From assembly GCA_030425045.1 (NCBI GenBank), contig JAUHVL010000007.1, forward strand, positions 1 through 64,000: 64,000 nt of DNA, given 5' to 3'. A model generated the notes under the pieces. It was not told the origin of the DNA and did not search any database. It saw only the letters and a program-made list of their open reading frames with translations. The translations under genes and the position numbers were made by a program. This document shows positions 5,835 through 8,667 of this stretch, in pieces (position 1 is the stretch's first letter; every line of letters begins with the position of its first letter). The stretch comes from a bacterium (GTDB lineage Bacteria; Bdellovibrionota; Bacteriovoracia; Bacteriovoracales; Bacteriovoracaceae).

Positions 5835-6479
5835 TTACTTGATCCCGTGATCAAGAGCAAACTTTATAAGATCTACAGTTGTCTTAAGATTTAGCTTTTC
5901 TAAAATACGTGATCTATAGGTAGAAGCTGTACTGGTACTGATACCCATTAATAAGGCAATATTACTTAAAGAATGACCTTCGGAGAGTTTACTTATAAAT
6001 TCAAATTCTCTCGGGGAGAGTTGTTCTAAGCCTTCTTTTTTGGCACTTGTGGTGGTGAGCTTTTGAATAACTTCAGAACTAATAGATGAAGAAACGTGAC
6101 TTTTTCCTTCATAAACTTTCTTGAGAGCTAAAATCAACTCGTCGATATCATCAGACTTAACCACATAACCGAGCGCCCCTGCATTTAAGGCCTTTACTGC
6201 GTAGCTAGCATTTTTATTAAAACTAAAAAAGAGAATGCGTATTCCAGATTTATTATTAACGATATCTTCTGTGACTTTTAGGCAGTCAACTCCAGGCATA
6301 CTATAGTCTATTAAAAGAATTTCGATACCTTTATTTTTTAGTGCTTTTTCAAGTCCTAAGCTATCGCCAGCTGTTGCCAATACTTCGAATTGATTTGTTT
6401 CCTGCAGAACCTGAGCGAGAGCATCTCTTACCATTGAGTGATCATCTGCTAGTACAATTTTTATTTTTTCTGCATTCAT
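5835..6479 (-). CDS. NarL/FixJ-family response regulator
   Basis: The receiver domain (residues 1-120) has the acidic pair in VLADDHS, phospho-acceptor Asp58 in LIDYSMPG and a conserved Lys in VVKSDD. A LuxR-type helix-turn-helix (about 150-210) reads LSPREFEFISKLSEGHS. I take the ATG at 6477-6479, one base after the kinase stop; an in-frame TTG at 6497 would give a six-residue extension and is less likely. The kinase gene directly upstream (6481-7389) is its partner. The output is transcription control of unknown targets; the adjacent acyltransferase, nine bases downstream, may share the transcript. Confidence 0.92.
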   Translation of the reverse strand: MNAEKIKIVLADDHSMVRDALAQVLQETNQFEVLATAGDSLGLEKALKNKGIEILLIDYSMPGVDCLKVTEDIVNNKSGIRILFFSFNKNASYAVKALNAGALGYVVKSDDIDELILALKKVYEGKSHVSSSISSEVIQKLTTTSAKKEGLEQLSPREFEFISKLSEGHSLSNIALLMGISTSTASTYRSRILEKLNLKTTVDLIKFALDHGIK

Positions 6480-6480
6480 A

Positions 6481-7389
6481 TTATAGTGGTACCGCAATTT
6501 TTACTCTTGTTCCAGCGCCTGCTTCTGAGTTGATCTCTAAATGACCATTCATAAGATCAACTCTTTCTTGCATACCTTTTAGTCCAAAAGTATCTTTTTT
6601 GGATTCATCTAAAAATCCAACGCCATTATCTTCTACTATAGTTTGAAGAGTATTATTCTCTTGCGCAATATGTATTTTAATTTGATTGGCCTTTGAATGC
6701 TTACAAACATTATTAAGCGCTTCTTTAATGGTTTTATAGAGGTTCTCTCTTGTAAATTGATTTGAAATACCTTTTTCAATATCAATATAGGTATGAATTT
6801 TAAGTCCAAAGATCATTTCATATTCATGAATCAGCTCTTCTAGCGTTTCAAAAAAATTAGGGTTTGAATAATCAGGTGTTCTGAGCTCTGAAATAATATG
6901 CGATATTTTTCGACTTAAACGATCAATGCAAGCTTTTAAACTCCCATAAGCATCATTTTGTTTTTCATTTTGAGGGGGAGATATTTTTTTTAGTAAATGG
7001 AGATTTAAATTGAGAGCAGCTACATTTTGAGCAAGGTCATCATGAATATCTCTTGCGATTGACTGCCGCTCTTTTAATTGCAGCTCCATTAATTTTTCCG
7101 ACATTAGGTTTAGACGGTATTGATTAACTTTATCTCTTTTTTGGGTTTTTACATAAAAGTAGGCGATGGCCAAACAGCAAAGAGAAGAAAGAATATTGAT
7201 GGAAATAATAAAATAGAGTGAGTCACCAACATTAAGACCAATAATTTCTAAGTTTTTCAGCTGGCTTTCAAATGAGTTCCTCATTTGAAAAGCAGAATAA
7301 GAAGTCGTCACATTGGCAATTGTAGTTGCTGCCCAGAGAAGCCATGGCCAGTTATCTTTTATCTTTCTCGTAAATTGTGGTTTCGTCAT
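6481..7389 (-). CDS. membrane sensor histidine kinase, HisKA_3 type
   Basis: At 302 residues the protein has two transmembrane helices (about 14-35 and 57-80) enclosing a very short extracytoplasmic loop. Then comes a HisKA_3 dimerisation block with phospho-accepting His116 in ERQSIARDIHDDLAQN, and an HATPase_c domain (N box IKEALNNVCKHSKA, G1 box VEDNGVGF, C-terminal EAGAGTRVKIAVPL). This places it with NarX/DegS/LiaS-like kinases that work with LuxR-type regulators. The loop is too small for a classical ligand pocket, so sensing within the membrane or by a partner protein is more likely. Confidence 0.92.
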   Translation of the reverse strand: MTKPQFTRKIKDNWPWLLWAATTIANVTTSYSAFQMRNSFESQLKNLEIIGLNVGDSLYFIISINILSSLCCLAIAYFYVKTQKRDKVNQYRLNLMSEKLMELQLKERQSIARDIHDDLAQNVAALNLNLHLLKKISPPQNEKQNDAYGSLKACIDRLSRKISHIISELRTPDYSNPNFFETLEELIHEYEMIFGLKIHTYIDIEKGISNQFTRENLYKTIKEALNNVCKHSKANQIKIHIAQENNTLQTIVEDNGVGFLDESKKDTFGLKGMQERVDLMNGHLEINSEAGAGTRVKIAVPL

Positions 7390-7767: not shown

Positions 7768-7797
7768 AGACCACTTGCTTTTGAAGACAAGTGGTCT
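7768..7797. terminator. hairpin terminator after the histone gene
   Basis: AGACCACTTG (7768-7777) and CAAGTGGTCT (7788-7797) make a perfect 10-bp stem. On the + strand it is followed by a strong T-rich run; on the - strand, the direction of the histone gene, by TTTAAAAT. Most likely it ends the histone transcript. Confidence 0.65.
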
Positions 7798-7813: not shown

Positions 7814-7999
7814 TTAGAAGTCTGTTGCTTTAACAGTTTTTCTTCCATTAGCTGTACAACGCTCTTGAGCATCTTTAATCATGTTGTGAACTCTTTCATT
7901 TAATCTTTCTAGAGCTTCACCTGAAACGTTAAGTCCAGTAGCTTTAAGAGCTTCTTTTGTTTTTGATCCAACTAATAGCATTTCTTGATCTTTAGACAT
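7814..7999 (-). CDS. histone-fold DNA-binding protein (Bdellovibrio HBb/Bd0055-like)
   Basis: I choose the ATG at 7997-7999 because AGGAG (8006-8010) is then six bases upstream; the ATG at 8005 would touch it. The product is 61 residues. Its shape is that of a single minimal histone fold: a short alpha-1 (LLVGSKTKEALKATG), a long alpha-2 (about 26-50), and loop 2 plus the start of alpha-3, GRKTVKATDF. That last segment closely matches GRKTIKAED of archaeal histones such as HMfB. Bdellovibrio bacteriovorus encodes a comparably short histone that is a major chromatin protein. This one should dimerise and coat or bend DNA. It is monocistronic, with a good promoter and its own terminator, as expected for an abundant protein. 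Confidence 0.88.
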   Translation of the reverse strand: MSKDQEMLLVGSKTKEALKATGLNVSGEALERLNERVHNMIKDAQERCTANGRKTVKATDF

Positions 8000-8042
8000 C
8001 TGCATCTCCTATTTTTATGTTAGTGGGTGATTACTAAAGGTA

Positions 8043-8077
8043 TGGCAATATTCTAGTGAGAAAATACGTGCTTTCAA
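8043..8077 (-). promoter_or_regulatory. sigma-70-like promoter of the histone gene
   Basis: Read on the - strand, TTGAAA (8072-8077), a 16-base spacer and TAGAAT (8050-8055) form a near-consensus promoter. Transcription would start near 8043, giving a leader of about 45 bases before the ATG at 7999. Confidence 0.5.
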
Positions 8078-8151: not shown

Positions 8152-8667
8152 TTATTTTTTTGCCGCATCAAGAAAATTTTTCAATAAAAACAGTCCAAGA
8201 GAGTCAAAATTAAAGTAGACTTCTCCACTCATTGTTTTCTCTATGAGTTCGTCTACAGTAAAAAGTTTTTTTTCTAAAATAAGTCCTTCATCGTCCGCAT
8301 GAAAAATTTTTGAGTCACTTAAACCTCGAGCGAGCACAAAATATTTATCGACATTAACACTCCCTCTATTTTTTACATGAGATAATAAAATGAGGTCTTG
8401 TGCTTTTTTTCCGATTTCTTCTTGCAGTTCTTTTTGTGAGTTTTCTTCCCAAGAGAGATCGTCTTCAAGAAAACCTGTTACGGGTTTCCACCTTTCTTTA
8501 ATCTCTTCATGAGGTCTGACTTCCTTAATGAAATAGATACGACCATCTTCTTCCATAGGAAAAACAATGACAGCTCCTTTTATATAGGCTTTTTCATAGA
8601 TAACATCATCAACATAGAGTTCTGTTAGCTTTATATATTTGCCATCATAAAAAGTTTTTTCATTCAC
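8152..8667 (-). CDS. Nudix hydrolase, ADP-ribose pyrophosphatase-like
   Basis: This 171-residue protein carries a Nudix box around residues 86-107 whose core reads KELQEEIGK (consensus REUXEEXGU), preceded by VTGFLED. These Glu residues bind the metals that drive pyrophosphate cleavage. The upstream pattern FIKEVRPH and the downstream strands suit NDP-sugar or ADP-ribose pyrophosphatases, but the substrate cannot be fixed from sequence. The GTG start at 8665-8667 overlaps the msrB stop in GTGA, so the two are translationally coupled. That suggests a shared role in cleaning up oxidised or damaged metabolites. Confidence 0.88.

Follow-up and report, generated by a model that had tools for sequence, protein, structure and literature searches.

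The stretch of DNA analysed here (the window, 64,000 nucleotides) encodes a true bacterial histone of 61 residues, which, on sequence and modelling evidence, consists of a single histone fold without tails. By analogy with the histone HLp of Leptospira perolatii, this alpha3 protein would act as a face-to-face (FtF) tetramer wrapping about 60 bp of DNA, and would probably be an abundant protein and a main organiser of the nucleoid. We assign this reading a probability of roughly 0.8.

The histone reading frame runs on the minus strand from an ATG at 7999 to a stop codon at 7816-7814 (61 codons). A Shine-Dalgarno sequence, AGGAG, ends 6 nt upstream of this ATG, supporting 7999 as the correct start. 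A longer in-frame reading from an ATG at 8005 was rejected, since that codon directly adjoins the AGGAG without any spacing, and reading the same interval on the plus strand was rejected because of its many stop codons. Orthologues with 64-83% identity are present in 20 further genomes from this class, and the 21 clade sequences show purifying selection (mean pS 0.62 vs mean pN 0.15). Together with the match to a histone in the PDB, these comparisons indicate that the reading frame is real and not a chance one. All features discussed are listed in the table below.

Table. Features of the histone locus and of the encoded protein; functions of individual residues are predicted by comparison with HLp.
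Feature	Positions	Strand	Basis or remark
Histone CDS, 61 aa (MSKDQEMLLVGSKTKEALKATGLNVSGEALERLNERVHNMIKDAQERCTANGRKTVKATDF)	7814..7999, stop codon included	minus	Translation, PDB match, model, selection
Predicted FtF tetramer residues R47 and N51, end of helix 2 (codons 47-51)	7847..7861	minus	Equivalent to HLp R49 and N53; 20/20 of clade
Loop 2 and C-terminal one-turn helix, GRKTVKATDF, residues 52-61	7817..7846	minus	Predicted RKT DNA-contact loop, R53-D60 clamp, F61
Helix 1, residues 11-19, GSKTKEALK	7943..7969	minus	Predicted DNA-facing S12, K13, K15, K19
Putative promoter TTGAAA-N16-TAGAAT(A), conserved spacer end TTCTCAc	8049..8077	minus	Clade conservation
Terminator-like stem-loop downstream of histone	7768..7797	minus	-16.7 kcal/mol, z -5.1
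Shine-Dalgarno AGGAG	8006..8010	minus	Sequence; similar Shine-Dalgarno at same place in orthologues

The source genome (3.97 Mb, 99.9% complete) has nearest named relatives that are mostly labelled Bacteriovoracaceae and Halobacteriovoraceae. A viral or phage origin of the histone was rejected, as a search of a viral collection gave no relative. No conserved operon or neighbourhood of the histone gene was found among the relatives examined, and the gene is therefore taken as a stand-alone unit; the sole recurring neighbour, seen in a few relatives and at varying distance, is similar to the NUDIX-like reading frame at 8155-8556. Downstream on the same strand (5835-7389), the translations read as a sensor histidine kinase and a LuxR-type response regulator, but no link of this pair to the histone is conserved in relatives. 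An Rfam search of the window gave no matches.

The best match in a phmmer search against the PDB is HLp (E 6e-10, residues 4-61), and further matches are HBb of Bdellovibrio (1e-4) and HTkC of Thermococcus (0.0064). Profile searches gave a more ambiguous picture, as the Pfam model PF00808 (CBFD_NFYB_HMF) scored 19.0 bits (E 0.0017), below its gathering cut-off of 21.4. The histone matches in Pfam and NCBIfam were all sub-threshold and by themselves left the case undecided; histone identity was settled by the PDB and fold searches. PF00808 reaches E 0.01 or better in 31 of 47 relatives, suggesting that this model is weak for the histone subclass. An AlphaFold2 model of the single chain, built from a 47-row alignment (pLDDT 91.7), has the histone fold, with helices at residues 11-19, 27-50 (24 residues) and, as a single turn, 58-60. 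In Foldseek/VIA comparisons the model fits HLp to 0.8 Å over 57 residues (Z 8.7) and HBb and HTkC to 0.9-1.0 Å, while the fit to HMf-type histones is looser (1.6-1.8 Å). In the alpha3 histones described in PMC11390915, helix 2 is about one turn shorter than in HMfB and the third helix has 3-4 residues; judged by its modelled helices and the fold comparison, the window protein is an alpha3 histone. It has no N-terminal ZZ-type zinc finger and hence is not a ZZ histone. A sequence-only reading of this DNA had proposed a minimal tail-less histone on the basis of the C-terminal GRKTVKATDF and the helix lengths, and the PDB matches, the short modelled helices and the fold comparison all bear this out.

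The subtype is indicated by a small set of residues. According to Schwab et al. (PMC11390915), FtF histones form a two-sided tetramer and conserve R48, N52, R54, T56 and D61, whereas bacterial dimers such as HBb are described there as lacking R48 and N52. In the window protein these five positions are R47, N51, R53, T55 and D60, and they are invariant in 20 clade members. HBb has S and D in the columns of the R/N pair, and in HBb, ZZ and doublet histones the pair is not kept together. In HLp, which forms an FtF tetramer wrapping about 60 bp of DNA, the contact between the dimers is made by R49, S52 and N53 on one side and F63, T61 and R55 on the other (Hu et al., PMC12701072). Using a register in which the HLp number equals the window number plus 2, the interface and clamp positions are occupied by R47, A50, N51, R53, T59, D60 and F61. 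In 19 of the 20 clade members there is T or S at position 59, and 19 likewise have F at position 61; the tail-less proteins of the clade stop exactly at position 61, like HLp.

Conservation extends to the predicted DNA-binding surface. The loop-2 and C-terminal residues map to R55, T56, T57, D62 and F63 of HLp, and S12, K13, K15 and K19 of helix 1, all clade-invariant, correspond to S14, K15, K17 and K21, which contact DNA in structures 9QT1/9QT2 (PMC12701072). T55 likewise occupies a conserved DNA-contact position, and R53, K54, T55 and D60 are invariant across 47 aligned FtF and dimer histones. Thus, by sequence and model comparison, the histone fold and most of the dimer-dimer, loop-2 and DNA-contact positions of HLp are conserved. 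Substitutions are found at HLp S52 (A50), loop-1 T27 (V25) and dimer-core V16 and L47 (T14 and Q45), implying that details of the interface differ from HLp. Moreover, the protein has 11 K/R and 9 D/E residues, and with this small net charge it may have a weaker basic band than other histones do.

Family tree analysis points in the same direction. In an IQ-TREE tree of 113 histone domains, based on 57 columns and hence poorly resolved, with HLp and HTkC on long branches, the window histone belongs to a 24-row clade (bootstrap 99, SH-aLRT 99). Other bacterial FtF histones (Bdellovibrionota, Myxococcota), HLp and archaeal FtF histones of Diapherotrites lie on its side of the tree, and the HBb, ZZ and doublet histones group together on a separate branch (99/97). 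The FtF residues missing from HBb and this grouping make tetramer wrapping in a nucleosome-like manner the more likely mode of action.

The histone gene appears to have its own promoter, as the sequence-only reading had claimed. The window promoter agrees with the clade consensus at 12 of 12 positions, and 10 or more of the 12 are retained in 18 of 20 clade members, compared to 13% of shuffles. A genome-wide count (3.97 Mb) gives a single copy of the 15-mer TTTCTCACTAGAATA, and any other site resembling the full pattern has at least 3 mismatches to it. A generic sigma-70 scan of the histone region alone performed no better than on shuffles and was uninformative, so that the support comes from clade conservation. 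Immediately ahead of the -10 box, the spacer element TTCTCAc is also conserved in the clade and unique in the genome, perhaps as a regulator site or as part of an optimised promoter. The terminator claimed by the same reading fared less clearly, since the downstream hairpin is very stable (0 of 200 shuffles are equally stable), but its T tract is weak on the strand of the histone (TTTAAAAT) and it is the opposite strand that has the long T run. A consensus terminator scan did not call this hairpin, and textbook terminators follow most orthologues. No plus-strand gene obviously ends at the opposite-strand T run.

Codon usage was taken as a proxy for abundance, using codon adaptation index (CAI) weights derived from 24 genes in the ribosomal-protein region; on its 58 scored codons the histone has a CAI of 0.80, compared to 0.63-0.77 for those 24 genes. 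This value is reached by none of 56 reading frames in the window and by 0.7% of 60-codon chunks. Among the other histone and HU/IHF-family genes of the genome, the CAI is 0.73 for a tailed FtF histone, 0.53 for a ZZ histone and 0.61, 0.52 and 0.72 for the three HU/IHF-family genes. From its codon usage and conserved promoter, the window histone is probably among the most abundant proteins of the cell. Together with the PDB matches and the fold, this also favours the earlier proposal that it is a component of histone-based chromatin, which we consider likely.

The second FtF histone of the source genome has 73 residues and a lysine-rich tail (G000 contig 72, L002), and the ZZ histone is a Cys-rich protein of 147 residues (contig 62, L003). 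Within the class, 57 of 129 genomes have an FtF match at E 1e-8 or better, and about 21 of 129 have a histone of the window type (E below 1e-21). Of 18 proteins in the tailed FtF group, 11 have K at position 47; the group has Y or H at position 59 and I or V at position 61, and the chain usually continues past the last of these. As a lead, these differing positions suggest that tail-less and tailed paralogues have different dimer-dimer faces. In L011, L016, L103, L107, L113 and other tailed FtF proteins, N-terminal AKKAAPKK/AKKTAKK repeats of H1-like composition, about 3 to 40 residues long, precede a nearly constant FtF domain. Window-type FtF genes also occur on two contigs of 66-69% GC from MAGs labelled Gemmatimonadota (L076, 5001-5171; L079, 2353-2523), where a similar amidohydrolase-like gene lies nearby and the histone itself has high GC3; these features look more like an ancient horizontal transfer than like contamination.

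Other modes of action have to be weighed against a wrapping tetramer. The sequence-only reading had seen a relative of HBb, itself known to bend or coat DNA. Such an action, by a dimer that forms no tetramer, would fit the alpha3 fold common to both proteins (about 1.0 Å to HBb chains over 55-57 residues), the common phylum, and a mixed bacterial histone profile that scores HBb as high as HLp, although this profile includes HBb-like rows. We nevertheless consider it quite improbable, as the single-sequence match is better for HLp by about five orders of magnitude, the protein has the R/N pair missing in HBb and ends exactly at F61, and the tree places it away from HBb. The likeness to HBb thus holds for membership in the alpha3 superfamily and is misleading for mechanism. 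A low-abundance, specialised DNA-binding or regulatory protein with a histone fold, as the ZZ histones seem to be, is likewise an improbable reading in view of the ribosome-like codon bias, the dedicated conserved promoter and the strong Shine-Dalgarno sequence; the ZZ histone of this genome, a type with low expression as reported in PMC11390915, has ordinary codon usage. This second alternative draws on the absence of the gene from most genomes of the class and on the presence of a second FtF histone and three HU/IHF-family proteins, which could take over part of the organiser job.

Finally, the window histone might work mainly in mixed oligomers with the tailed paralogue, in the manner of histone variants. 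A second FtF gene accompanies the window type in 14 of 21 genomes, and in the source genome both proteins keep N51 and R53 and both genes have a high CAI. The remaining 7 genomes give no second FtF match, which suggests that the window type is able to act alone, and in many tailed copies the replacement of R47 by K and of T59 by Y and the C-terminal extension argue for separate assemblies. We therefore regard mixed oligomers as the main form as unlikely.

A further group, single-chain doublet histones of about 131 residues with two HBb/ZZ-like alpha3 folds, was observed in 46 of 129 genomes of the class and is absent from the source genome. Examples are L039 (1404-1883, minus), L040, L041, L042, L043, L044 and L045, in genomes G003, G011, G021, G032, G024, G004 and G034. 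In the tree, next to the ZZ histones, the first halves make up one clade and the second halves another, which probably reflects a single fusion event. AlphaFold2 predicts an intramolecular pseudodimer (pLDDT 92.7, pTM 0.86), one half of which fits HBb to 0.4 Å. Doublet and window-type histones never occur in the same genome (12 and 12 of 48 genera, none shared; p ~0.018 by a statistic that ignores phylogeny). It is tempting to see in the Bacteriovoracaceae a system of histone variants, with a tail-less FtF core, a lysine-tailed FtF histone whose dimer-dimer face is altered by K at position 47, Y at position 59 and a longer C-terminus, a ZZ-finger histone and, for sister genera without the window type, doublets, forming distinct particles on bacterial chromosomes; this idea is tentative and rather doubtful.

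If the window histone does act as a wrapping tetramer, as we propose from the HLp structures, two chains would pair head to tail via helix 2, and two dimers would close face to face at both ends into a torus-shaped tetramer, in which R47, N51 and R53 from one dimer would face T59, F61 and R53 from its partner. DNA would wrap non-specifically on a basic rim formed by S12, K13, K15, K19, loop-1 G27 and loop-2 K54 and T55, at about 60 bp per tetramer, the figure measured for HLp. The gene would be transcribed alone from its dedicated promoter, and its product would serve as a main nucleoid organiser beside the lysine-tailed FtF histone and the HU/IHF proteins.

The occurrence of histones in this lineage, presented as news by the sequence-only reading, had already been reported in 2024 for FtF histones in the class Bacteriovoracia (PMC11390915), so that the window protein adds a member to a known kind and is no new type of chromatin protein. 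Our literature search found no paper devoted to Halobacteriovorax or Bacteriovorax histones, nor one specific to the doublet group. How this lineage combines histone paralogues, doublets included, is less documented than the FtF class itself. With HU/IHF proteins, a ZZ histone and two FtF paralogues (one of them tailed) in one genome, and in the phylum that also holds the HBb-bearing Bdellovibrio, this lineage is well suited for studying how wrapping histones share their work with bending ones, and also whether true variants exist among bacterial histones. The default view that a histone of the Bdellovibrionota behaves like HBb is hereby corrected.

Among known systems, HBb (Bd0055 of Bdellovibrio bacteriovorus; PDB 8CMP, 8FVX, 9EZZ, 9F0E) has the alpha3 fold, the RKTxxxxD loop and the phylum in common with the window histone, but it does not have the tetramer pair R48/N52, goes no further than a dimer, acts by bending or coating DNA and lies on another branch of the tree. 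HTkC (PDB 9F2C) and the FtF histones of Diapherotrites/Iainarchaeota have the same minimal tail-less FtF architecture but are archaeal; HTkC has about 35% identity and E in place of N, whereas the Diapherotrites proteins keep R/N/R and end at the final position of the window protein. The FtF histones of Bacteriovoracia in PMC11390915 are of the same bacterial class and the same FtF class, and the window protein almost certainly belongs to them; the consulted text of that survey makes no split between tail-less and lysine-tailed paralogues and does not describe their promoter, codon bias or co-occurrence. The closest system is HLp (PDB 9QT0-9QT2, PMC12701072). Differences are the sequence itself (about 42% identity), N-V in loop 1 where HLp has M-T, K54 where HLp has T56, the lack of the smc/map neighbours of HLp, and the HU/IHF proteins and two other histones, which Leptospira does not have. 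Both proteins have the same fold, length and one-turn third helix, the tetramer residues R/N/R, the C-terminal F, the S-K-x-K motif with a distal K in helix 1, and the RD clamp.
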